The notes beneath the pieces are model-generated. The model ran no database searches. It saw nothing but the letters and a program-made list of their open reading frames with translations, and was not told where the DNA came from. This document shows positions 11,782 to 24,308 of a DNA stretch of 35,025 nt, one piece after another (position 1 is the first letter of the stretch; every line of letters begins with the position of its first letter). This DNA comes from an uncultured Verrucomicrobiota bacterium (lineage in GTDB: Bacteria > Verrucomicrobiota > Verrucomicrobiia > Limisphaerales > UBA9464). The stretch is from positions 1 through 35,025 of the forward strand of contig CAIVQB010000075.1 of NCBI GenBank assembly GCA_903907925.1, given 5' to 3'. The position numbers and the translations under genes were made by a program.

Positions 11782-11949
11782 CGGAACCTCCGGTTCTCTA
11801 AAACCAGGGCAAAGTGCGACTTCAGGCCGGTGTTGAGCGCTGCGAAGTCACTCAACCGGGTGCAGTTTGGCGAGACCACGTCACCGGGAGCGACGACTGG
11901 AAAACGGTTTCAGGCTGGAGCCGGCTGCCCTGCTGGATACCCTACCCGC

Positions 11950-12690
11950 ATGCTTCGTCGTGAGCAGGAATCCTCACCGCCCCCGCACGATTTCCGCACC
12001 ACCCACTGGTCGATGGTGCTGGAGGCCGGCACAGGCACCGAGGGCGGGCGCACGGCGCTGGAAACGCTGTGCCGTAACTACTGGTATCCGCTCTACGCCT
12101 TTGTCCGGCGCAGCGGCTACGGTCCCGACGAGTCGGGTGATCTCACTCAGGAGTTTTTTGCGCGCTTCCTCGAATCCGACTCGCTGGGGGGAGTTCACCC
12201 GGACCGGGGCCGATTCCGCTCCTACCTGCTCGCCGCGCTGAAGAATTTTCTGGCAAAGGAATGGCGCGATGCGAACCGCCTCAAGCGCGGCGGAGGCAAG
12301 GAGATCATCGCCTGGGATCAGTTCGATCCCGAGGAGCGTTACCACCTGGAACCGGTGGGCGATGTTTCCCCCGAAGTGCTGTTCGACCGCCGCTGGGCGC
12401 ACCTGCTCGTCGCGCGGGTGCTGGAGCGGCTCGAAGCCGAACTCGTCCGCGAAGGCTTTGCCGAACGCTTCCAGATGCTGGCGCCCTTCCTGCAGGGCGC
12501 CGCCGAAGGGCTGCCCTATGTCGAAGTCGGGGCACGGCTGGGCTTGTCGGAGGCGGCGGTGAAGGTCGCGGTGTTCCGTCTGCGCCGGCGCTACGGCGAA
12601 CTCATCCGCGAGGAGATTGCCGCGACGGTGTCCTCCCCGGACGAAGTGCAGGCAGAACTCCACCACCTCATCGAGATCCTGGCGGGGTAA
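11950..12690 (+). CDS. ECF-type RNA polymerase sigma factor
   Basis: A 246-residue sigma-70 family protein of the ECF kind. Region 2 spans about residues 40-105: LCRNYWYPLYAFVRRSGYGPDESGDLTQEFFARFLE is the conserved core-binding helix pair. Region 4 spans about 155-225, with YVEVGARLGLSEAAVKVAVFRLRRRYGELIREEI forming the promoter-binding HTH. ATG 11950 starts just before the conserved part; the frame is open upstream to 11830 without homologous-looking sequence. The next gene downstream encodes a Ser/Thr kinase with WD40 repeats. This sigma-kinase pairing is known from Planctomycetes and Verrucomicrobia, where kinase control of the sigma factor is proposed. No classical anti-sigma gene is adjacent. 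Confidence 0.93.
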   Translation: MLRREQESSPPPHDFRTTHWSMVLEAGTGTEGGRTALETLCRNYWYPLYAFVRRSGYGPDESGDLTQEFFARFLESDSLGGVHPDRGRFRSYLLAALKNFLAKEWRDANRLKRGGGKEIIAWDQFDPEERYHLEPVGDVSPEVLFDRRWAHLLVARVLERLEAELVREGFAERFQMLAPFLQGAAEGLPYVEVGARLGLSEAAVKVAVFRLRRRYGELIREEIAATVSSPDEVQAELHHLIEILAG

Positions 12691-12746
12691 GATTCGCGAT
12701 GAAGCCAGGATTCACAGGGACAGGCCAATGGCCTGAGACATCACAG

Positions 12747-12900
12747 CCCGGGGCAACGCCCCGGGTGCTGGACAGGAATGTGGTCAGCCCTGAAGGGGCG
12801 GCACAGACAAGCCGATACCGTTTGTCCCGCCCCTTCAGGGCTGGCTCTGTTTCTTACGATGCACCCAAGGCGTTTCCCTGGGCTGCGATGTCCCGCCCCT
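12747..12900. repeat. REP-like palindromes between sigma-factor and kinase genes
   Basis: CCCGGGGC AAC GCCCCGGG at 12747-12765 is a perfect 8-bp hairpin. CAGCCCTGAAGGGGCGG (12785-12801) and its exact 17-base complement (12827-12843) form a second, larger inverted repeat with a 25-base loop. A partial third copy (CCCTGGGC, TCCCGCCCCTTC) reaches 12900. These are the same boxes as in the repeats around the transposase at 16605-17051. The block fills most of the 286 bases between the two genes and could attenuate transcription into the kinase gene. Confidence 0.85.
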
Positions 12901-12976
12901 TCGGAGCTTCAACTTGGAGATTCCGGAGCAGCGCCGTGTAACCTTGGCTGGCAAACGGGTCTGGAACACTCGGAAG

Positions 12977-15900
12977 ATGGATAAGGCCAACGGCACCGAA
13001 CTGCCCGCGTCACGCTGTCCGACCTGCGGAGCCGGACTGGACAACCGTGCCCGCTGCACCCGCTGCCTACTGCTGGGCGCGCTGGAAACCTGGACCGGTG
13101 CGGCGGCGGAGGCCGAGGAACTCGCCGCGCCCGTCATGCTGCTGCGGCAGACGCAGTTCGCCGGCTATGAATTGCTGGGCGAACTCGGTCGCGGCGGCAT
13201 GGGCGTGGTGTTCAAGGCCCGGCAGAAGCAGCCCGCGCGCGACGTGGCACTGAAGGTCATTGCGGGGGGCGAACTCGCCTCGCCCCGTGCCGTCCAACGC
13301 TTCCACACCGAGGCCAAAGCCGCCGCCGCGCTGCATCATCCGAACATTGTTTCCATTCACGAGGTCGGTGAGGACCAGGGCTGGCACTATTTTTCGATGC
13401 GGCTGGTCGAGGGCAGCACGCTGGCCGACGCCCTGCGCGACGGCCCGCTGCCGGGCGAGGCCGCCGCACGCCTGATGGTGAAGCTCGCCCGCGCCGTTCA
13501 CTACGCGCACCAGCGTGGCATTCTGCACCGCGACCTCAAGCCGACCAACATCCTGCTCGACACGCAGGGTGAGCCCCATCTCACCGACTTCGGCCTGGCC
13601 AAGGTCGCCAGCGACGACAGCAGTCTCACGCTGAGCCACGCCGTGCTCGGTACTCCGGCCTACATGGCCCCGGAACAGGCCACCGGCGGCACGCGCGATG
13701 TGACTGTCGCGGCCGACGTGTACGGACTGGGTGCGATTCTCTACGAGGTGCTGGCCGGCCGGCCGCCGTTCACCGCTGAGAGCACGCCCGCGCTGCTGCG
13801 AAAAATCGTGGAAGAGGAGCCACAGCCCATCACCAGGGACGAATTGCGAAGGTCGAATGCCGGGCAACCCGCTGCTTCACCCGCCACTCGAAATTCGAAA
13901 TTTGAAACCCGGAATTCCCAAGACCTCTCGGTCATCTGTTTCAAGTGCCTGGAGAAGGAACCGTCGAGGCGCTACGCGTCGTCGTCGGACCTGGCGGACG
14001 ATCTGGAACGGTGGCTGCGGCACGAGCCGATCCTGGCGCGCCCGAGCACGGCCTGGGAACGGACGGCGAAGTGGGTGCGGCGCAATCGGACGATCTTCAC
14101 GGCCCTTGCCGCGGTGGCGTTGCTGCTGGTGGCCGGCACCGCCGTCAGCACCTGGCAGGCAGTGCGCGCCACCCGGGCTGAACGCGAGCAGAACCGCCTG
14201 CGGGCCGTCGAACAGGCGGCCAAAACCAACGAGGAACGACTGCGTCGCGAGGCCGAGGCCCGCAGCTACGCCGCCGACATCAACCTCGCGCAACAGGCGC
14301 TGTCCGCGAACAATGTGGGCCGCGCCCGGGCGCTGTTGAAATCCCACTGGCTGACGGAGGAGAAGGCCGGCCGAACGGCTGCGCCCTCCGCTTCACAGGC
14401 CCCTCACCCCTCGCCCCTCGTCACCGACCTCCGCGGCTGGGAATGGCGCTATCTCTGGCAACAGGCGCAGAATGACGCCGAATACCGGTTCGCAACGGTT
14501 TCGAACTCCGTCAGCTCTCTCTCCGTGTCGGCGGACGGACACTGGCTGGCGGTGGGTCAGGCCGATGGCGGTGGCCTGGTGGTCTATGACCTGCGGAGCC
14601 GCGCCGAGGTGGCTCGTTTTGAGAGCCGGTTTCAACGCGTAATGACGGCCTTTTCCCCGATGGAACCACTGCTCGCCTATTCCTTCATGGCCGGTTCCCA
14701 GGATGCGGAGCAGCGTTACTCGGTCCGGTTCTGGAACGCAGCGACCCGGGAGTTCGTCGGCGAGATTTCCACGCCCGGCCGTTGCGAACGGCTCCAGTTC
14801 TCCGCCGATGGCCGGACGCTGTTGCTGGGCATCGTCGCGGCGGAGAGCCGGCTCATGCTCTGGCGCGTGGCCGACCGCACCCTGCTCCGGAGCGTGCCTT
14901 CCAACCCCGAACCGGGCGCACACTTCGCCGGCGCGGAGGACCTGAGCGCTGCGGCGGAAGCGGTGGTGGGCGGCGGCCTGCGGTGGGTGGATTTTCGGAC
15001 CGGGCAGACGCGCTGGACGGTGCCGGCCGCCGACGAGCGGGTGATGGTTGTGGCCGTATCGCCCGACCGATCGCTGGTGGCCACTGGGGCCGGCTTTGCG
15101 GAATCGACCATCCGGCTCTGGGCCGCCGATTCCGGCCGCGAACTCGGCCGCCTGTATGGTCACGTCGGCTACGTGCGCGACCTGCGCTTTCTGTCGGACG
15201 GAAAGACTCTGCTTTCCGCCAGTTCCGACCAAACGATCCGTCTGTGGGATGTCGCGGGCCGCCGTTCTTTGGCCGTGCTGCGCGGTCACCCGCAGGAGGT
15301 CTGGTCGCTGGCGCTGCTTCCGGATCAGCGCACGCTGCTGAGCGGGGCCAAGGACGGCTCGGTCCTGGTCTGGGATCTCGAACGCATGCGCCGGCCGCGC
15401 AACCGCCTCACGTTACCGGCGCCGGCGCGGGGTTGGGCGTTCGGTTCGGGTGGAAAAACCGTACTGCTGGCGGAAAACTCCGGTGCAATTTCGGAATGGT
15501 CGGGGCCGGACTTCCAGAAAAGTCGCGTGCTTCATGATTTCGGCGCGGCGATCACGCGCGCGTGCTTCACGGACGATGGCCGGCGAGCGGCGGTGGAACT
15601 GCCGGGGCGCCGGGCCGTGGTGTGGGATTTACCGGCCCAGCACGGGGTTGCGGAGTTTTCCCTGCCACCCGGCCAGTCGCATCCGAAGGAATTTTCTGCC
15701 TCCGGGGACCGGCTGTGCCTGGATGACAACGACAGTGACGCCGCCGATTTCCACGAATGGGACCTGAAGGAAAACCGGCCCGTTCAGGACTGGCTGGTGC
15801 CGGGGCCGGCCGTGGTCTCCGGCGGCTATTCGCCGGATGAGCAGTGGCGGATCGCGCTGAACATCTTCGGGGCGGGCGTCGCGCGGGATCTCCTCGCGCA

Positions 15901-16318
15901 CACCAACCGACCGTTCACGGTCCGGATCACCCAGGCCGATTCCGCCACGCTTTCGCCCGACGGGAAGCTCCTGGCCGTGACCAGCGTGTTTGGTTACGTC
16001 GGCCTCTGGGAATGGCCGTCCCTCCGCGAGGCCGGCACGCTGCTTGGATTTCTCCAGGGCGCCCACTCGGTCCGGTTCTCGCCGGACGGCCGCCGGTTGG
16101 CCGCCGGCAGTAATGGCCGGGAGGCGGTAAAACTCTGGGACCTGGCCACCCAACGCGAGCTGATCACCCTCGAAGGAGAGGGCTCGATCTTCTCCCGGCT
16201 GCGCTTCTCCCCGGATGGCAACGTGTTCGGCGCCCGCAACGCCGCCGGCATCGTCCACCTCTGGCGCGCGCCGTCCTTCGAGGAGATCACAGCGGCGGAA
16301 CTAGCGGCGGGGAAGTAG
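12977..16318 (+). CDS. Membrane Ser/Thr protein kinase with C-terminal WD40 repeats
   Basis: A 1113-residue PknB-type kinase. A small zinc-ribbon-like motif (CPTCGAG..CTRC) lies near residues 14-30. The kinase domain starts at about residue 65 with the Gly loop GRGGMG (71-76), Lys93, HRDLKPTN (catalytic Asp186), DFG (Asp204) and GTPAYMAPEQ. One predicted membrane helix (about 373-393) follows, then a charged coil region and the motif DLRGWEWRYLW. The rest, to the C-terminus, is WD40-like (repeats such as HVGYVRDLRFLSDGKTLLSA, DQTIRLWD), probably a periplasmic or surface propeller. Residues about 304-315 (TRNSKFETRNSQ) derive from a low-complexity repeat within the kinase domain. The preferred start is ATG 12977; a TTG at 12914 is an alternative. 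It probably works with the upstream sigma factor. Confidence 0.93.
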   Translation: MDKANGTELPASRCPTCGAGLDNRARCTRCLLLGALETWTGAAAEAEELAAPVMLLRQTQFAGYELLGELGRGGMGVVFKARQKQPARDVALKVIAGGELASPRAVQRFHTEAKAAAALHHPNIVSIHEVGEDQGWHYFSMRLVEGSTLADALRDGPLPGEAAARLMVKLARAVHYAHQRGILHRDLKPTNILLDTQGEPHLTDFGLAKVASDDSSLTLSHAVLGTPAYMAPEQATGGTRDVTVAADVYGLGAILYEVLAGRPPFTAESTPALLRKIVEEEPQPITRDELRRSNAGQPAASPATRNSKFETRNSQDLSVICFKCLEKEPSRRYASSSDLADDLERWLRHEPILARPSTAWERTAKWVRRNRTIFTALAAVALLLVAGTAVSTWQAVRATRAEREQNRLRAVEQAAKTNEERLRREAEARSYAADINLAQQALSANNVGRARALLKSHWLTEEKAGRTAAPSASQAPHPSPLVTDLRGWEWRYLWQQAQNDAEYRFATVSNSVSSLSVSADGHWLAVGQADGGGLVVYDLRSRAEVARFESRFQRVMTAFSPMEPLLAYSFMAGSQDAEQRYSVRFWNAATREFVGEISTPGRCERLQFSADGRTLLLGIVAAESRLMLWRVADRTLLRSVPSNPEPGAHFAGAEDLSAAAEAVVGGGLRWVDFRTGQTRWTVPAADERVMVVAVSPDRSLVATGAGFAESTIRLWAADSGRELGRLYGHVGYVRDLRFLSDGKTLLSASSDQTIRLWDVAGRRSLAVLRGHPQEVWSLALLPDQRTLLSGAKDGSVLVWDLERMRRPRNRLTLPAPARGWAFGSGGKTVLLAENSGAISEWSGPDFQKSRVLHDFGAAITRACFTDDGRRAAVELPGRRAVVWDLPAQHGVAEFSLPPGQSHPKEFSASGDRLCLDDNDSDAADFHEWDLKENRPVQDWLVPGPAVVSGGYSPDEQWRIALNIFGAGVARDLLAHTNRPFTVRITQADSATLSPDGKLLAVTSVFGYVGLWEWPSLREAGTLLGFLQGAHSVRFSPDGRRLAAGSNGREAVKLWDLATQRELITLEGEGSIFSRLRFSPDGNVFGARNAAGIVHLWRAPSFEEITAAELAAGK
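13886..13920 (+). repeat. Dispersed AAATTCGAAATT-type repeat inside the kinase gene
   Basis: The 35-base stretch (CTCGAAATTCGAAATTTGAAA, then CCCGGAATTCCCA) is AT-rich and internally repetitive, unlike the surrounding GC-rich codons. It is translated in frame as TRNSKFETRNSQ, in the loop before the last kinase helices (DLSVICFKCLEKEP). Similar repetitive text lies between genes at 30121-30158. Confidence 0.6.
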
Positions 16319-16338: not shown

Positions 16339-16588
16339 TGCCCCAACGGGGCAAGACAACAAAGCCCAGGGCAACGCCCTGGGCTCAATGCCAACATGCC
16401 GCAAGCCCTGAAAGGGCGGGACAAAACGGCAATGCATGCAGGTTGGTTCCCCGATTGTATCAATGCGATGGCGTCGTCGAATTGAAATGACCGGACGGAC
16501 GGTTTCGCCCCTTCAGGGCTGGCCACATTTTTCCTTCTATGCCCTGGGCGTTGCCCCGGGCTTTGTTGTCTCGGCCCTTTGGGGCATC
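16339..16588. repeat. Pair of inverted REP-like units downstream of the kinase gene
   Basis: The unit at 16339-16422 reads GCCCCAACGGGGC, then the leader GACAACAAAG with hairpin CCCAGGGC AAC GCCCTGGG (16355-16383), then GCCCTGAAAGGGCGGGAC. A second unit in opposite orientation at 16505-16588 has the same boxes in reverse order (CGCCCCTTCAGGGCTGG, then CCCTGGGC GTT GCCCCGGG with TTTGTTGTC at 16542-16570, then GCCCTTTGGGGC). About 80 bases separate them. The head-to-head layout resembles BIME pairs of REP elements. Confidence 0.88.
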
Positions 16589-16604
16589 GCTTTCACACCC
16601 ACCC

Positions 16605-17051
16605 TCAATCCCACACATACGCCTCGTCGAACTCGACTTGGTACCGCCGCAACAATTCGCGGAACTCCTCCTGAAACGTCCGCCGCCGGTGATGCTGTTC
16701 CTGATTGCGGATGTATTCCGTCACGGCCTCCGCCTGCGCCGCTCCGATGGAAAACGCGCCGTAGCCCGCCTGCCATCCGAACTCGCGGACTCCTTGTTCC
16801 TTCATCCACTTGGATGACTCGACCTTGAGTTCCTTGACGGCGTCGGACAGCGCCCGGTTCTTCGACAAACGGAAGAGGATGTGGACATGGTCCGTCACGC
16901 CGCCAACCAGTAGCGCGGGGCATTCAATCGCCTGGCCGGCACCGGCGAGATAAGCGTGCAGACGCGGGGCGTCCTCCGCCGGAATCAGCGGCACCCGGCC
17001 CTTGGTAGAAAAAACGAGGTGAACGTAGATTTGGGCGAGAGACTGGGGCAT
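16605..17051 (-). CDS. REP-associated tyrosine transposase (RAYT, IS200/IS605 Y1-like)
   Basis: A 148-residue single-strand HUH nuclease of the TnpA_REP family. The HUH motif is HVH (His55 and His57 in DHVHILFRL). The nucleophile is probably Tyr113 in EYIRNQEQHH, with Gln117 four residues later as in IS200 enzymes. The N-terminus (YVHLVFSTKGR) and the C-terminal end (DEAYVWD) are hallmarks of RAYTs. ATG 17051 gives the normal N-terminus (MPQSLAQIYVHLVF); an in-frame start at 17075 adds eight residues. No partner tnpB and no IS ends are seen. Instead the gene is flanked on both sides by palindromic repeats sharing a GAYAACAAAG leader, the expected association of a domesticated, REP-processing enzyme. 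Confidence 0.93.
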   Translation of the reverse strand: MPQSLAQIYVHLVFSTKGRVPLIPAEDAPRLHAYLAGAGQAIECPALLVGGVTDHVHILFRLSKNRALSDAVKELKVESSKWMKEQGVREFGWQAGYGAFSIGAAQAEAVTEYIRNQEQHHRRRTFQEEFRELLRRYQVEFDEAYVWD

Positions 17052-17079
17052 GGCGAAAGGCTGTGAACAGGGCACGGAT

Positions 17080-17482
17080 TGTCACGCCCTTTCAGGGCTG
17101 GCTCCGCTTGTGCCTTCAACCCAAGGCTGCGCCTTGGGCTTTGTTGTCACGCCCCGTTGGGGCGAAGACAGACGCGCAAGAGCACGCAGGCGCGAAAGAG
17201 AACACGCCAACGGTTCGGCGTGACGCCACAACCACCACACCGCGGCCCGTGCCCTGAAAGGGCGGGATAACAAAGCCCAGGGCAACGCCCTGGGTTTGCG
17301 TCGCCAACGTCTCCAGCCCTGAAGGGGCGAGACAACTGCGGCAAGGCTTTGCCATCAGTCGCCAGCGGGGGACAGAACGCGGATTCGGATGTCCATGTGT
17401 CCCGCCCTTTCAGGGCTGGGTGGTTCTCGGGCCGTTCACCCAGGGCGTTACCCTGGGCTTTGTTGTCTTGCCCCTTTGGGGC
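17080..17482. repeat. Cluster of three REP-like units upstream of the transposase gene
   Basis: Unit one is at 17080-17165: CGCCCTTTCAGGGCTGG, then CCCAAGGC TGC GCCTTGGG plus CTTTGTTGTC (17120-17148), then GCCCCGTTGGGGC. Unit two, opposite, is at about 17250-17335: CCCTGAAAGGGCGG, GATAACAAAG with CCCAGGGC AAC GCCCTGGG (17266-17294), then CAGCCCTGAAGGGGCG. Unit three is at 17398-17482: CCGCCCTTTCAGGGCTGG, then CCCAGGGC GTT ACCCTGGG plus CTTTGTTGTC (17439-17467), then GCCCCTTTGGGGC. These fill most of the 549 bases between the transposase gene and the large secreted-protein gene; no gene is seen here. Confidence 0.88.
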
Positions 17483-17600
17483 GTGAACCGCGCCACCGCC
17501 ATCCTCCTGCCTTCCGGCTTTCCAAATTCTTCCCTCTCTCCGCAAAAAAATTCGCCGCCCCCGGTAACCCGCCCCTCTGAACGGGTCTGGAACGGGTGGA

Positions 17601-20600
17601 ATGAAAAACCCATCGCCTTCGGACTCCACGAACGCCGGCCGCGCCACCCGGTCTTTTGCCTCGCTCCGCTCCGCCTGGAACCGGCTGCCTGCCCTGCTGC
17701 TCGCCGCCCTCGGACTGCTCGCCCCGGCCGCCTTGCACGCCGGGCAATACTTCCAGGACTTTTCCTCGTCCACCGTCGGCGCGACGACGTTCAGTGACGG
17801 CTCGGACCTGTCCAGCGACCGGCCCGGGACGGTGGCGATGGTGCAGGATGCCACCCTCAAGGAACTCGCCCTGACCGCCAGCGGCACCGTCAACACCCAC
17901 AGCGCCTTCCGGCTGCCCGACCTCGACCCCGGCACGCCGGTCTATGCGTTCTCCGCGCGATGGAACTCGCAGGTCAACGGCGATTTCGAGAACGCCGCCG
18001 ACGGCTTCTCGTTCAACTTCGGCCAACTGGGCGCGCTCGACCTCGTCAATGCCACGGCGACGCAGGAGGCCGGCTACGGCACCGGCCTTACGTTCGGAGT
18101 GCAAACCTACCTGGGCGGCAATCCTGGCTTCGATCTGCGCGTCAACGGCAGCGTCGTCGCCACCGTCACCAACGACCCCGGGCTGCAGTGGGGCGTCTCC
18201 AGCGGCACCCGCCATCTGTTCGAGGTGGACTGGAATTACCTCACCGGCCTTACGGTGCGCCTGGACGGCAACCCGGTCTTCACCAACGTCGCCACGCCGG
18301 GCTTCACCCCGCAGGCCGGCGACCGCTTCGTGTGGGCGGCGCGCTGCGGCGGCGGGTTCGCCGAGGAGGTGCGGCTGGACAACGTCCTCGTGCTGACCGG
18401 CGGCAACCTGGTGCGCGTCGCGACGACCGCCCCGTATTTCAAGGACGGCGAGAATTCCCCCAGCCAGACCGCCGACAAGGCCTTCGACGGGAACATCGCC
18501 ACCAAATGGCTGACCTTCAATCACCCCGCCGGCTTCGTGGGCGCGACCGTCTCGGGCAATCACTCGGTGCGCGCCTATGCACTGAGTTCGGCCGAGGATT
18601 TTTCGGTGCGCGACCCGCTGACGTGGACGCTGGAGGGCAGCGGCGACGGCGGCTCGAGCTGGTCTTCCGCCGGGAGCGGTGGCGGCCATTTCGCGAACCG
18701 CAACGAGACGCGGTTCTGGGCCGGCACCAGCGCGTCCACCTTCGGCGCGTTCCGGTTGAACATCGCCGCGAACAACGGCGGAACTGAAATCCAGCTCGCG
18801 GAAATGGCGCTCTATGAGTTCAGCCCCGTGCGGCTCGTCACCGTGGCCGACGAGGCCGGCCTCCGCGCCGCGCTGACCGGTCAGCAGGCCGGCGACACCA
18901 TCCGCTTTGCCAACGACATCACGCTGACCACGGGCGACCTGCCGGCGGTGCAGCAGGGCATCACGATTGACGGCAACGGCCACACGCTGGATGGGAACAA
19001 CCAGTTCCGCGGCCTCTTCGTGGTCTCCTTCGTGCCTGGCACGGCGACCTTCCAGAATGTCAGCGTGGCCATCCAGAACCTCACCATCCAACACGCCAAG
19101 GCCAGGGGCGGCAATGGCTATGCCAACGCCGGCGGTGGCGCGGGCCTGGGCGGGGCGCTGTTCGTCGGCAACCTCGCGAGCGTGACCGTGCAGAATGTCC
19201 AACTGACGGCCAACCAGGCGGTGGGTGGCACGGGCGGCGGCAACACCGGCTTCGGCGCAGGTGGCGGGATGGGTGGTCATGGCGCCAACGGTGATGGTGG
19301 CGGAGGCGGCATCGGCGTGGGTGCGGACGGCAGATTTAATGGGAATGGCGGCGCGGGCATCGTTTTGGGCGCGGCCAGCGGCGGAAGTGCTGCTGCGCCT
19401 GACGGCAACGGCGGTCCAGGCGGCGGCGGCGGTGGCAGCGGTCACGGAACCTCCTCGGTCGGGGCCGGCGGTGGTGTTGGCGGGGGCAATTCCCCATCCC
19501 TTCCGGGCGGCACTGGGCTGGGCGGCTTTGGTGGCGGTGGCGGTGGCGGCGTTCCGGGCGCTGCCGGAGGTTTTGGCGGCGGCGGCGGATTTTCCAAAAG
19601 CGGCGGCTTCGGCGGCGGCGGCGGGAGCTCCAACGGGAGCGGTGGCTTTGGCGGCGGCAATGGTGGGAGCATCGGCGGCGGCGGCGCGGGCCTGGGCGGC
19701 GCACTCTTTGTCCAGCAAGGCGGCAGCCTGACGTTGGCCGGCCCGCTCACGCTCAATGGCAATTCCGTCACTGGCGGTGCCGTTGCCGGCAGCGGCGCAC
19801 CCGGCTCGGCCTTCGGCAGCGGCCTCTTTTTCGAGGGCAACAACACCGTGACCTTCGCGCCGGGGGCGGGCGAGACCCAGACCGTTGCCGACGTCATCGG
19901 CGACAAGAGCGGCAACGGTGGCACGGGCGGCCCCGGCGACTCCGTCAGTGTCATCAAGGCCGGTGCGGGCACGCTCGTGCTTTCCGCAGCGAACACCTAC
20001 GTCGGCGACACCACGGTCCAGGAAGGCGCGTTGCTCGTGAACGGTTCGCTCGCCTCTTTCCCGGGGAACTCCGGCACCGAGGTCACGGTCGCCAGCGGCG
20101 CGACGCTCGGCGGGACGGGCACCATCGGCGCACGGACGACCGTGAACGGCACGCTGTCGCCGGGCGCATCCATCGGCACGCTGACCTTCAATAATGCGCT
20201 CACGCTGGGCGCGGGCAGCACGACGTTCATCGAGCTGGACAAATCCGTGCCGGCCCACGACGTGGCGCGCTCGCTCTCGATTGTGACCTATGGCGGCGCG
20301 CTCGTGGTGACCAACCTCGGCGGCACGCTCGCCGCGGGCGACAGCTTCAAGATTTTCGACGCGGCCAGCTATGCCGGCACGTTCAGCAGCCTCACCCTCC
20401 CCGCGCTGCCGCCGGGGCTGTCGTGGAGCACCGCCGGCCTCGCGTTGGACGGGACGCTGCATGTCGTGTCGCCGCTCTACCTCGTGAACGACGAGGCGGG
20501 CCTCCGCACGGCGACCCTCTGCGCGGTCGCTGGCGACACCATCCGCTTCGCCAGCGACGTCACGCTCACCACCGGCGACCTGTATGCCCTGCAGCAGAGC

Positions 20601-23600
20601 GTCACCATCGAGGGCGACGGCCACACGCTGGACGGCAACAACCAGTTCCGCGGCTTCTTCGTGGTGTCCTTCGTGCCCGGCACGGCGACGTTCCAGAGCG
20701 TCAACGTGACGATTCGGAACCTGACCCTCCAGCACACGCGGGCCAGGGGCGGCACTGGCGGAGCCAACGGCGGTGGCGGCGCGGGCCTGGGCGGCGCGCT
20801 GTTCGTGGGCAACCTCGCGACAGTGAACGTGGACAACCTGCAAATCCGCACGAACAGCGCCACCGGCGGAAACGGCGGCGGCACCACCGGCACGGGCGGG
20901 GGAGGCGGCCTGGGCGGCAACGGCAGCATCAATGGCGGCGGCGGCGGCGTGGGGGTGGGAGCGGATGGTGGAGATGCCACCGTCAGCGGTGCTCCGGGAA
21001 TCGTCGTGGGTGCGGCTCCGGGTGGTGACGGCAATGTTGGCAGCCTTGGCGTCGTTGGGGGCATTGGTGGCATCAACGGTGGCGGCGGCGGCGGCAGGGA
21101 CGCCGGCGGCGGCGGCGGCGGCGGTGTCGGCGGATTCAACTTCAGCGGAACTCCACACAATAAGGACGGCGGTTTCGGCGGCGGCGGCGGCGGCGGTTTT
21201 CCCGGCGGCAATGGCGGCTTCGGTGGCGGTGCTGCAAATGGGAACGGTAAAACCGGCGGTTTCGGCGGTGGTGGTGGTTCAGGTACACTATCAGCCAGCG
21301 GTGGTTTCGGCGGTGGCAACGGCGGCGGCGGCAGTTTTGGCGGCGGCGGTGGCGGTGGCCTGGGCGGCGCGATTTTCGTCATGCAGGGCGGCGTGCTGAA
21401 TGTGTCCGGCCCGCTGTCCCTTCACGACAGCACGGTGGCCGCCGGTGCGGCGGGCGGCGGCGCGGCCTTGCCCGGCTCGGCCTTCGGCAGCGGCATCTTC
21501 ATCAACGGCACGGGCGCCCTGACTTTCGCGCCCGCCACCGGCGAGATCGCGACGGTGAGCGATGAAATCGCCGACCAGTCCGGCAACGGCGGCACGGGCG
21601 GCAACGCGGGCACCGCCTCGTTGATCAAGAACGGCGCGGGCACGCTCATCCTGAGTGCCGCGAATACCTACACCGGCACGACCACGGTCAACGCCGGCAC
21701 ACTGCGCGTAAACGGCTCGCTGGCGTCCGGCGCGGTCACGGTCGCGAACGGCACGACGCTTGGCGGCACCGGCACCGTCGGCGGCACGGCGACCATCGAC
21801 GGCACCCTGGCACCGGGAAATTCCATCGGCACGATGACCTTCGGCACCGACCTCACGCTTCCGGCGGACAGCACGACGGCCATCGAGCTGAGCGCGTCGC
21901 TGCACACCAACGACGTGGTGCAGGTGCTGGGGACAGTGACCTACGGCGGCACGCTGGTGGTGTCGAACCTCGGCGGCACGTTCGCCGTCGGCGACAGCTT
22001 CCAGATCTTCAATGCGACCGGCTACGCGGGCGCGTTCGACACGATCACTCTGCCTGCGCTGCCGGCGACGCTGCGCTGGAACACCAACAGCCTCGCGATC
22101 GACGGGACGCTGCGATTGGTGAGCACGACCCAGACCGTGACCGACGAGGCCACCCTGCGTGACGCGCTGGCCACGGTCGTGGACGGCGACACCATCCGCT
22201 TCGCGAACGACATCACCCTGGCCAGTGGCGACCTGCCCATCGTGCAGAAGAGCATCACCATCGCCGGTGCCGGCCACACCCTGGACGGTGGCGACCAGTA
22301 TCGCGGTCTCTTCGTGGTGGCCTTCGTGCCCGGCACGGCAACGTTCACCAACGTCACTGTGGCGATTGAGAATCTCACCATTCAAAACGCGAAAGCCCAG
22401 GGCGGCTCCGGTGGCTACAATGCCGGCGGCGGTGCGGGTCTGGGTGGTGCGCTGTTCGTCGGCAACCTGGCGACGGTGAGCGCGAGCAACCTGCAGATCG
22501 TCACGAACCGCGCCACCGGTGGTGACGGCGGTGCAGCGCTCGGTTTCGGTGGTGGCGGTGGCATGGGCGGAAACGGCGGCACGTCCGGTAACTTCACCGG
22601 CGGCGGCGGCCTGGGCTCGGGGGCGAACGGTGGCACTTTCAGCGACGGTGCTCCCGGCATCGCCCTGGGCGCGGCTCCGGGCGGTCTGGGCATTGCGGGC
22701 GTGGGTCACCTCGGTGGCATCAACGGCGGCGGCGGCGCGGGGGACTCCCTCGGCGGCGGTGGCGGTGGTGTCGGCGGCCAGAACGGCGATGACGGCTTCG
22801 CGGGCGGCTTTGGCGGCGGCGGCGGCGGACAACCTCTCGTCGGTCCGGGCGCGCCCGTCAGTGGCAGCGGCGGATTCGGCGGTGGTGGCGGCGACTTGCA
22901 ACCCGGCGGGTTCGGCGGCGGCGGCGGCGTGGCCAACATCGGCGGTTTCGGTGGCGGCGACGGCGCGGGTGCGGGCGGCGGCGGGGGTGGCGGTGCGGGT
23001 CTGGGCGGCGCGATCTTTGTGATGGAAGGGGGCAGCCTGACTCTGTCCGGGTCGCTGGCCCTTCACGACAGCACGGTAGCGGGTGGCGCAGAGGCCGGGG
23101 TCTCGGCGTTTCCCGGTTCAGCCTTCGGCAGCGGTTTGTTCCTCCAGGGCAATGGCTCGGTGACCTTCTCGCCCGACACCGGGGAGACGCAGACCGTGGC
23201 CAATGACATTGCCGACCAGTCGGGCAGCGGCGGCACCGGTGGCAACGCGGGCGTGGGTGGCATCATCAAGACCGGCGCGGGCACGCTCGTTCTTTCCGGT
23301 GCGAACACCTACACCGGCACCACAGTGGTCAGCACCGGCCTGCTGCAGGTGGACGGCTCCATCGGCACGGGCGCGGTGGACGTCACCGACGACGGAGTGC
23401 TGGGCGGCAGCGGCACCATCGGCGGCCCGGTCACCATGGGGGGCATCCTTTCGCCCGGTGCGGGCATCGGCACCCTGACCTTCAGCGTCGCGCCGTCTCT
23501 GACGCCAGACGCCCTGACCTATCTCGAACTGAAACGGTTGCCGCACACCAACGACGTGGTGCGCGTGCTCGGGCCGATGACCTACGGCGGCGTGCTGTCG

Positions 23601-24308
23601 GTGGTCAACCTCGGCGGCACGCTCGCGGCCGGCGACAGCTTCAAGCTCTTCGATGCCACCGGTTACGCCGGCGTGTTCAGCAGTTTCGACCTGCCCGCGC
23701 TGCCGCCGGGCCGTGCCTGGGACACCAGCCACCTGACCCTCGACGGGACCCTGCGGGTGATGAAGACGAATACCGACCCGATCGCCGGCCCCGACACGCT
23801 GACCTGCGCTCCAGGGCGCAGCGTGAAGGTGGCGTTGTCCGCCCTGCTGGCAAACGACACCGACAGCGACGGGCCCTCCGCGCTCAGCATCACGACGGTC
23901 GCTTCGCTCTCGGCGAATGGAGCGACGGTGCGGGTGGTGAGTGGCACCGTAATCTACGAGGCCGGAACGGCCGGCGGGACCGACAGCTTCACCTACACGG
24001 TGAGTGATGGCGCGGACACGGTGACTGGCACCGTCACCGTGACCGTGACCGAGCCGGGAACGCCGACGCAGAACGTCACCGGCACCCTGCTCACCGGCGC
24101 GCCCGGTTCCGAGCAGATGCAGGTCGGGGCGGCGGGCATCCCCGGCCGGAGCTACCGGTTGCAGATCACCAGCAGCCTCACGTCGCCCATCACCTGGACC
24201 GACCTGGGCACCGTCCAGACCGCACCGGCCAACGGCCAGTTGCAGTTCAACGATCCATCGCCCGTGTCCCCGCGCTTCTATCGCGTGATGGAAACCGCCG
24301 GCCACTGA
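17601..24308 (+). CDS. Giant secreted Gly-rich protein with three tandem modules and autotransporter-associated repeats
   Basis: A 2235-residue exported protein. The signal peptide (LPALLLAALGLLAPAALHA) ends near residue 48. A legume-lectin-like domain (about 50-270) and a discoidin/F5-8C-like domain (about 275-410) follow. Three tandem modules of about 550 residues start near residues 416, 964 and 1515. Each has a DEAxLR..GDTIRFANDITL segment, a parallel-beta-helix-like segment (GHTLDGNNQFRG, ENLTIQ), a long Gly-rich stretch, and an autotransporter-associated beta-strand repeat (KTGAGTLVLSGANTYTGTT). The last part holds a cadherin-like repeat (SALLANDTDSDGP..DSFTYTVSDG) and a beta-rich end (SYRLQITSSLTSPITWTDLG). 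No outer-membrane barrel or PEP-CTERM tail is visible, so the export route is unclear. An adhesin or matrix role is inferred. Confidence 0.9.
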   Translation: MKNPSPSDSTNAGRATRSFASLRSAWNRLPALLLAALGLLAPAALHAGQYFQDFSSSTVGATTFSDGSDLSSDRPGTVAMVQDATLKELALTASGTVNTHSAFRLPDLDPGTPVYAFSARWNSQVNGDFENAADGFSFNFGQLGALDLVNATATQEAGYGTGLTFGVQTYLGGNPGFDLRVNGSVVATVTNDPGLQWGVSSGTRHLFEVDWNYLTGLTVRLDGNPVFTNVATPGFTPQAGDRFVWAARCGGGFAEEVRLDNVLVLTGGNLVRVATTAPYFKDGENSPSQTADKAFDGNIATKWLTFNHPAGFVGATVSGNHSVRAYALSSAEDFSVRDPLTWTLEGSGDGGSSWSSAGSGGGHFANRNETRFWAGTSASTFGAFRLNIAANNGGTEIQLAEMALYEFSPVRLVTVADEAGLRAALTGQQAGDTIRFANDITLTTGDLPAVQQGITIDGNGHTLDGNNQFRGLFVVSFVPGTATFQNVSVAIQNLTIQHAKARGGNGYANAGGGAGLGGALFVGNLASVTVQNVQLTANQAVGGTGGGNTGFGAGGGMGGHGANGDGGGGGIGVGADGRFNGNGGAGIVLGAASGGSAAAPDGNGGPGGGGGGSGHGTSSVGAGGGVGGGNSPSLPGGTGLGGFGGGGGGGVPGAAGGFGGGGGFSKSGGFGGGGGSSNGSGGFGGGNGGSIGGGGAGLGGALFVQQGGSLTLAGPLTLNGNSVTGGAVAGSGAPGSAFGSGLFFEGNNTVTFAPGAGETQTVADVIGDKSGNGGTGGPGDSVSVIKAGAGTLVLSAANTYVGDTTVQEGALLVNGSLASFPGNSGTEVTVASGATLGGTGTIGARTTVNGTLSPGASIGTLTFNNALTLGAGSTTFIELDKSVPAHDVARSLSIVTYGGALVVTNLGGTLAAGDSFKIFDAASYAGTFSSLTLPALPPGLSWSTAGLALDGTLHVVSPLYLVNDEAGLRTATLCAVAGDTIRFASDVTLTTGDLYALQQSVTIEGDGHTLDGNNQFRGFFVVSFVPGTATFQSVNVTIRNLTLQHTRARGGTGGANGGGGAGLGGALFVGNLATVNVDNLQIRTNSATGGNGGGTTGTGGGGGLGGNGSINGGGGGVGVGADGGDATVSGAPGIVVGAAPGGDGNVGSLGVVGGIGGINGGGGGGRDAGGGGGGGVGGFNFSGTPHNKDGGFGGGGGGGFPGGNGGFGGGAANGNGKTGGFGGGGGSGTLSASGGFGGGNGGGGSFGGGGGGGLGGAIFVMQGGVLNVSGPLSLHDSTVAAGAAGGGAALPGSAFGSGIFINGTGALTFAPATGEIATVSDEIADQSGNGGTGGNAGTASLIKNGAGTLILSAANTYTGTTTVNAGTLRVNGSLASGAVTVANGTTLGGTGTVGGTATIDGTLAPGNSIGTMTFGTDLTLPADSTTAIELSASLHTNDVVQVLGTVTYGGTLVVSNLGGTFAVGDSFQIFNATGYAGAFDTITLPALPATLRWNTNSLAIDGTLRLVSTTQTVTDEATLRDALATVVDGDTIRFANDITLASGDLPIVQKSITIAGAGHTLDGGDQYRGLFVVAFVPGTATFTNVTVAIENLTIQNAKAQGGSGGYNAGGGAGLGGALFVGNLATVSASNLQIVTNRATGGDGGAALGFGGGGGMGGNGGTSGNFTGGGGLGSGANGGTFSDGAPGIALGAAPGGLGIAGVGHLGGINGGGGAGDSLGGGGGGVGGQNGDDGFAGGFGGGGGGQPLVGPGAPVSGSGGFGGGGGDLQPGGFGGGGGVANIGGFGGGDGAGAGGGGGGGAGLGGAIFVMEGGSLTLSGSLALHDSTVAGGAEAGVSAFPGSAFGSGLFLQGNGSVTFSPDTGETQTVANDIADQSGSGGTGGNAGVGGIIKTGAGTLVLSGANTYTGTTVVSTGLLQVDGSIGTGAVDVTDDGVLGGSGTIGGPVTMGGILSPGAGIGTLTFSVAPSLTPDALTYLELKRLPHTNDVVRVLGPMTYGGVLSVVNLGGTLAAGDSFKLFDATGYAGVFSSFDLPALPPGRAWDTSHLTLDGTLRVMKTNTDPIAGPDTLTCAPGRSVKVALSALLANDTDSDGPSALSITTVASLSANGATVRVVSGTVIYEAGTAGGTDSFTYTVSDGADTVTGTVTVTVTEPGTPTQNVTGTLLTGAPGSEQMQVGAAGIPGRSYRLQITSSLTSPITWTDLGTVQTAPANGQLQFNDPSPVSPRFYRVMETAGH
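18848..23760 (+). repeat. Three tandem 1.65-kb coding modules
   Basis: The segment starting GACGAGGC recurs at 18848, 20490 and 22143, giving periods of 1642 and 1653 bases. Long blocks such as the one coding for FRGLFVVSFVPGTATF and GGGAGLGGALFVGN are near-identical in the three copies, while the Gly-rich parts differ in length. This points to internal duplication within the gene. Confidence 0.9.

Follow-up and report, generated by a model that had tools for sequence, protein, structure and literature searches.

In the 35,025-nt stretch of DNA analysed here (the window), which belongs to a 4.6-Mb draft genome of an uncultured Verrucomicrobiota bacterium, the gene tnpA and the palindromic repeats around it very probably form a REPtron-like locus of TnpA_Y1 subclass 1.2, whose two-hairpin repeat has been mistaken for an RNA. 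The comparison with homologous loci further suggests, with good though somewhat lower confidence, a separate and widespread class of single-stranded DNA (ssDNA) transposition, in which TnpA enzymes of subclass 1.2 would recognise units composed of hairpin A, a linker ending in AG and hairpin B, and would mobilise inverted pairs of these units in many phyla, Acido-Lenti-1 being that DNA element. Both readings draw on the anatomy of the units, their cognate variation, dispersal, pairing and co-occurrence with the gene, all of which are established at the level of sequence.

The tnpA locus

The gene tnpA lies at positions 16605-17051 on the minus strand of contig C75, between the repeat units U2 and U3, and encodes 148 aa matching PF01797 (Y1_Tnp, E=4e-23). 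The features of the window are listed below with their scores against the Rfam covariance model RF01687 and against R1, a model of 39 units obtained from 43 d=28 units minus four reverse or stray hairpins.

16605..17051, minus strand: tnpA, HUH/tyrosine transposase of 148 aa (D54-H55-V-H57, W93-Q94, Y113---Q117--H120-H121; PF01797)
16340..16383, plus strand: U1, A-linker-B (29-base core 16355-16383; whole unit 16339-16424); R1 57.3 bits, ssDNA folding
16405..16417, plus strand: second A box (A') of U1, palindrome
16542..16585, minus strand: U2, A-linker-B with imperfect stems (core 16542-16570; whole unit 16501-16586); R1 38.1 bits, RF01687 19.3 bits, ssDNA folding
16507..16519, minus strand: second A box (A') of U2, palindrome with one stem mismatch
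17120..17163, minus strand: U3, nearest unit upstream of tnpA, in gene orientation (core 17120-17148; whole unit 17079-17163); R1 56.1 bits, RF01687 31.9 bits, ssDNA folding
17086..17098, minus strand: second A box (A') of U3, palindrome
17251..17294, plus strand: U4, sole unit over the RF01687 gathering score (core 17266-17294; whole unit 17249-17335); R1 54.7 bits, RF01687 39.9 vs 37 bits, ssDNA folding
17316..17328, plus strand: second A box (A') of U4, palindrome
17439..17482, minus strand: U5, A-linker-B (core 17439-17467; whole unit 17398-17483); R1 53.4 bits, ssDNA folding
17404..17416, minus strand: second A box (A') of U5, palindrome
~12719-12907, both strands: degenerate inverted pair (~12722-12765 plus, ~12864-12907 minus); R1 53.5 and 35.2 bits, similarity to the five units

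The five units around tnpA are about 85 nt long, occur in both orientations and share the order of three palindromic boxes A-B-A'. Hairpin A (5-6 bp with a 3-nt loop) is followed by a ~12-nt linker with AAAG at its end, then by hairpin B (8-9 bp), 20-22 nt and A'. The original prediction of at least five 29-base cores in both orientations, with three palindromic boxes per unit, was confirmed for all five positions named, 16355 (+), 16542 (-), 17120 (-), 17266 (+) and 17439 (-), and its claim that the transposase is embedded in its own palindromic repeat family was upheld in a REPtron-like form. When folded as ssDNA, the 46-47 nt A-B pieces of all five units yield hairpins A and B (z -3.2 to -5.5), and for each unit only 0 or 1 of 200 shuffles folds as well. 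In the U2 piece (16541-16586), hairpin A has only 4 bp and hairpin B contains one mismatched pair. The degenerate inverted pair is located about 3.4 kb from the tnpA locus, between a sigma-like gene and a kinase-WD40 gene.

As to the surrounding genes, positions 12914-16318 (+) encode a 1134-aa Ser/Thr kinase fused to WD40 repeats, beside a sigma-70-like gene (11830-12690). On the other side, positions 17601-24308 (+) encode a 2235-aa protein with pectate-lyase-like and cadherin domains, which starts about 120 nt beyond the last unit. No tnpB was found among the neighbouring genes scanned around tnpA.

The window TnpA carries the motifs DHVH, WQ and YIRNQEQHH. Two alignments, of 57 and 45 homologues, were made; in the larger one H55, H57, W93, Q94, Y113, Q117 and H121 are invariant, while D54 and H120 are nearly so. 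The available text of Quentin et al. 2018 (PMC6006769) gives DH[IV]H, WQ, Y---Q--HH and a median of 148 aa as the signature of subclass 1.2. All of these are found in the window TnpA, which, judged by motifs and length and not by a tree of the published subclasses, is a TnpA_Y1 of subclass 1.2. The enzyme had been predicted to be of the TnpA_REP type, which did not hold: its motif is Y---Q--HH and not Y---NP, it fails the NCBIfam model REP_Tyr_transpos (19.2 bits vs a cut-off of 80) and just passes the IS200 model (56.5 bits vs 55). In agreement with this, a profile search of the PDB returned eight sequences, all IS200-type or unnamed transposases, including the TnpA of ISDra2 and IS608. Comparison of the fold, using an AlphaFold model (mean pLDDT 90, pTM 0.76), likewise placed ISDra2 and IS608 TnpA first (E from 4e-8 on), with a weaker match to the REP-bound TnpA (RAYT) 4er8 (E 2e-4). 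Furthermore, the GT[AG]G foot 5′ of a single hairpin is absent; the foot here is mostly NAG and lies at the end of the ~12-nt linker between the two hairpins. A classical RAYT (class 2) is thus ruled out by the missing Y---NP motif, the REP_Tyr_transpos score below cut-off and the missing GT[AG]G foot.

The two-hairpin architecture beside homologous genes

A homologue of TnpA (E<=1e-10) was found in 81 of the 387 genomes of the phylum. The flanks of 170 homologue loci were surveyed, 90 from phylum genomes (mostly the better-scoring ones among the matches listed) and 80 from named records. Within 1 kb of the 90 phylum homologues, the spacing of A and B, measured from loop centre to loop centre, peaks sharply at 28-30 nt (111, 34 and 19 pairs vs 0.4-0.5 per bin in shuffles), and a second peak at 37-40 nt stems from A'. 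At least one hairpin pair with this spacing, some of them stray, is present in 60 of these 90 loci, and at least two in 45. The 80 named loci gave the same result: the sequence up to 600 nt from the gene (91.5 kb in all) contains 80 pairs spaced by 28 nt and 32 spaced by 29 nt, compared with 7 and 2 pairs in 165 kb of control region 1.3-2.5 kb away.

A foot-bearing unit lies within 500 nt of the gene in 100 of the 170 loci; the other 70 have no unit that passes the filters within this distance, and in a sample of 12 of them several showed other paired hairpins and others nothing. Within the same 500 nt, the foot-bearing unit closest to the gene on the upstream side has the orientation of the gene in 58 of 80 loci (median 69 nt), and the closest one downstream is inverted in 61 of 73 (median 59 nt). 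Hence, at loci with units, the sequences show that the usual arrangement is one two-hairpin unit (hairpin A, a linker with an AG foot, hairpin B) on each side of the gene, the two being inverted relative to each other. U2, the nearest unit downstream of the window tnpA, has an unusual orientation.

The original prediction also described GAYAACAAAG as the leader of the repeat. This sequence is present in the window, but across homologues it is the AG at the base of hairpin B, and not the whole leader, that is best kept. Of 78 units tallied without a filter on the foot, 72 have AG in front of hairpin B, while foot frequencies in the 170-locus survey are conditional, as it admits only AG-like or AA feet. 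The loop of A is GAA, AAC or AAA in 84 of 100 units of the homologue survey.

By record title, the hosts of foot-bearing units are Verrucomicrobia, Planctomycetes, Acidobacteria, Bacteroidetes, Fibrobacteres, Calditrichota and Chloroflexi, many of them MAGs. By comparison, the available text of Quentin et al. 2018 places subclass 1.2 mostly in Cyanobacteria and Bacteroidetes and enters "no" in its REP column (PMC6006769). The signature and length of the enzymes are alike in both studies, but the published absence of REPs nearby is contradicted by the two-hairpin units flanking 100 of 170 genes. Among the Y1 genes of nearest relatives, a strict search detected units at 5 of 13 Y---Q--HH loci, one of which is doubtful; none of three genes with an NP motif has units and one further Y---Q gene has six. 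It was also observed that one homologue locus (L029, genome G189) contains 15 units in tandem, all facing the same way and repeating every ~69 nt, five upstream and ten downstream of the transposase gene.

The hairpins are GC-rich, and an open-frame test of unit positions in the window's own genome, which is GC-rich and full of spurious frames, leans weakly towards non-coding positions (p 0.04). Both would suit stems that terminate transcription in both directions or stabilise mRNA, and that selection has made recurrent. However, the set spacing of 28-30 nt, the unpaired AG foot, the lineage-specific linkers and the enrichment beside one gene family are not features of terminators, which makes this explanation hardly credible.

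The sequence of the units follows that of the enzyme: stems and linkers mostly agree around one gene and vary among transposase lineages. Unit similarity correlates with protein identity for the linker (Mantel r 0.20), the A stem (0.29) and the B stem (0.29; p 0.001 with 999 permutations), whereas the 12 nt after hairpin B do not track protein identity (r 0.008, p 0.37). At least two flanked TnpA that are 40-55% identical are present in each of 11 genomes, and the linkers clearly differ in 10 of these. The exception is G186, whose paralogues share the final seven bases of the linker and differ only in the stems. Two genes of G268 that are 90% identical have a common unit type.

Allowing at most one mismatch, the window linker plus B stem occurs in 3 of 387 genomes, namely its own (G000), G187 and G199; two mismatches add weaker matches in two more genomes. 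This pattern catches four of the five window cores, the stem at 17120 being too divergent. In the window's own genome it is found in four places, all within the window, in G199 once, and in G187 once beside the TnpA gene and twice elsewhere. The G187 TnpA is 70% identical to that of the window and has the same linker and B stem, and because G187 belongs to another family, the sequences suggest joint transfer of gene and units between families.

Dispersed copies in the genome

Whether the repeat is absent elsewhere in the genome, which the original prediction named as evidence against it, has a divided answer. The B-box pattern with up to three mismatches occurs in only four places of the genome, all in the window locus, so that the exact sequence does not occur outside the window. 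However, about 100 units built on the same plan, but differing in their linkers and stems, are scattered through the genome. R1 gave at least 118 matches at E<=1, a few of them partial, which is a lower bound because 150 of 1712 candidates were scored. The 104 matches with E<1e-3 form 70 clusters and include 17 plus-minus pairs 80-160 nt apart. In the 60 stretches that were read, which leave out four clusters on C133, C137 and C143, a linker resembling CATACCAG is present in 69 of 87 foot-bearing units. Units with this type of linker also flank the second transposase gene of the genome (C47:26983-27432), which is interrupted by a premature TAG and is 51% identical to the first.

The genome thus contains genes flanked by their own repeat type and repeats dispersed without the gene, which is the organisation of a REPtron. 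The exact version found in the window is dispersed only as two further copies in G187 and one in G199; its confinement to its own locus would suggest that it was recently acquired or is inefficient.

One inverted pair (L214, ~1000-1194) lies between flanks that are conserved in congeners. The matching gap in G387, G392 and G393 is 46, 39 and 82 nt long, vs ~350 nt, and contains no unit. At this one site, with approximate boundaries, three of seven congeners are informative; the other four are silent because the two flanks fall on different contigs. On sequence grounds, the difference could be either a gain in G000 or a loss in the congeners. An empty site for the window cassette was not found in the genus, in which the alignable parts of the window region are limited to repeats and short stretches.

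These distributions also bear on the possibility of an ordinary IS200-type insertion sequence, in which the gene and its flanking hairpins move as one and the outer units were left behind by successive insertions. The best sequence and fold matches of the enzyme are IS200/IS605 TnpA (the TnpA of IS608 and ISDra2 are its nearest relatives with solved structures), its Y---Q motif is as in class 1, one unit stands on each side of the gene at a narrow distance, and several genomes have up to six protein matches among the matches listed. However, the closest upstream and downstream units mostly face in opposite directions instead of forming same-strand ends, no tnpB was seen beside it, and in the window's genome two gene copies stand against many gene-less units. 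Near-identical gene-bearing copies in one genome and same-strand end hairpins, as expected of IS200/IS605, were not found for the window's system; one other genome, G268, has two genes that are 90% identical. In addition, the available text of Quentin et al. 2018 describes subclass 1.2 as low in copy number and without IS properties (PMC6006769). An ordinary insertion sequence is therefore unlikely, and a REPtron-like organisation is preferred.

In about 20 of 40 own-genome units with the B stem CCTTGGGC, the unit is found within a longer repeat of ~180 nt that extends ~130 nt beyond hairpin B (e.g., L179, L183, L185, L187 and L213). This longer repeat looks like a separate dispersed element that captured, or arose from, a unit.

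Acido-Lenti-1, related systems and a proposed mechanism

On the opposite strand, all five window units align with the RF01687 model ("Acido-Lenti-1 RNA"), each covering all 46 positions of the model. One scores 39.9 bits, above the gathering score of 37, and the other four score 31.9, 27.0, 26.4 and 19.3 bits (E 1e-4 to 0.27). In 20 homologue loci, RF01687 was the sole Rfam family above its gathering score, with 34 matches in 10 loci.

Scoring the best 15-16 candidates per genome, RF01687 was detected in 68 of the 81 genomes that have the gene and in 40 of the 306 that do not (OR 35). The repeat being equally common in genomes that lack the transposase, the other outcome held to count against the original prediction, is therefore not what was found, although gene-less genomes with many units exist. 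The association persists when stratified, at family level only (Mantel-Haenszel OR 36, p 3e-14, 16 informative families), and RF01687 is absent from 14 control genomes, though five of them have other Y1 transposases. With R1 and the same number of candidates, matches occur in 69 of 81 gene-positive and 44 of 306 gene-negative genomes (family-stratified OR 34), but this co-occurrence is partly built in because R1, unlike RF01687, was built from units beside the gene in these very genomes. Of 12 named genomes, 10 have R1 matches, among them Flavipsychrobacter stenotrophus with 32 and Algoriphagus ratkowskyi with 18, and two have the gene without matches.

Among the 44 genomes with R1 matches and no TnpA match, 22 have at least five matches. 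A profile search of these 22 revealed a clear relative in two, a weak one in two and none in 18, and units therefore persist without a detectable gene, through loss or through drafts broken at repeats. It was also noted that G359, G201 and others contain many R1 matches and no detectable subclass 1.2 gene, which could be orphan populations or assembly gaps. In G405 (the record of L106, Verrucomicrobium sp. BvORR034), many of the 79 R1 matches are 61 nt long and not 44, so that there may be a variant unit whose linker or loop is longer.

In the available text of Weinberg et al. 2010 (PMC2864571), Acido-Lenti-1 is a likely RNA of Acidobacteria and Lentisphaerae, and a table marks it "y" for RNA and "n" for cis-regulatory. 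The accessible parts of later reports propose that it may regulate proteases in Tannerella (a 2026 paper, PMC13298647) and record it in Vibrio, annotated as ncRNA (PMC10059132). In the open-access literature naming the motif, as far as its accessible text goes, no link to a transposase was found. Similarly, no prior description of two-hairpin units was found in the accessible open-access text, and the open-access literature yielded no mention of the A-box sequence.

RF01687 is a curated Rfam family, to which five units match at full length and one above the cut-off, as would be expected if Acido-Lenti-1 were a true non-coding RNA and the transposase a passenger inserting nearby. However, the units occur in both orientations, in inverted pairs and in tandem arrays, and bracket one type of enzyme at narrow distances; moreover, their stems and linkers track the enzyme lineage and differ between paralogues in one genome, which is unexpected of a conserved RNA. 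A non-coding RNA is thus very unlikely. Because the same two-hairpin repeat, read on the other strand, surrounds a DNA-cutting enzyme, Acido-Lenti-1 is probably to be re-assigned, on sequence evidence, from RNA to mobile DNA element.

As to known systems, the locus had been likened to REP/RAYT. The likeness holds for the organisation, and the repeat sequence differs as predicted, but it does not extend to the class of the enzyme or to the foot. In common with TnpA_REP/RAYT and REP/REPIN (the REPtrons of E. coli, Pseudomonas and Stenotrophomonas), an HUH/Y1 enzyme stands among copies of a palindromic repeat of its own that face either way, with inverted pairs, dispersed gene-less copies and an unpaired foot ending in AG beside a hairpin. 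In contrast, the enzyme has Y---Q--HH and not Y---NP, the GT[AG]G foot is missing, and each unit has two hairpins, a linker of near-fixed length and a third box. In class 3 TnpA_Y1, according to the accessible text of Quentin et al. 2018, "atypical" non-GTAG structures likewise flank the gene, with ~600 copies in Solibacter usitatus, but this is another class, with a Y----Q motif one residue longer and a CnGA foot.

These comparisons suggest a mechanism in which the protein would bind the unit as ssDNA, for example on the lagging-strand template, and recognise the shape of the hairpins, their loops and the linker. We infer both this single-strand recognition and cleavage by Tyr113. The AG foot would act as a guide selecting a CT-type cleavage site. 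The accessible text of PMC8266576 connects the final two bases of GTAG with the choice of a CT site, as in the guides of IS608, and a CT-type cut is predicted here because the AG foot occupies the same place relative to hairpin B as the end of GTAG in REPs. A 5′-phosphotyrosine intermediate at Tyr113 would then allow inverted pairs to be excised and re-inserted in a REPIN-like manner, whereas the gene would stay put or be passed on horizontally together with its cognate units. As a guess, A and B could each sit on one protomer of a dimer.

If correct, this reading provides a substrate and a likely job for a transposase subclass that was described in 2018 without one, and adds a two-hairpin type to the known types of REP. 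It also offers a testable identity for a motif that was filed as RNA in 2010 and, in the accessible texts cited above, is still annotated as ncRNA. Enzyme/unit pairs with different linkers in one genome make the recognition rules directly testable. Finally, an A immediately precedes hairpin A in all 69 own-genome units with the CATACCAG-like linker and in 57 of 100 units across homologues, and this A may mark a position of cleavage or recognition.
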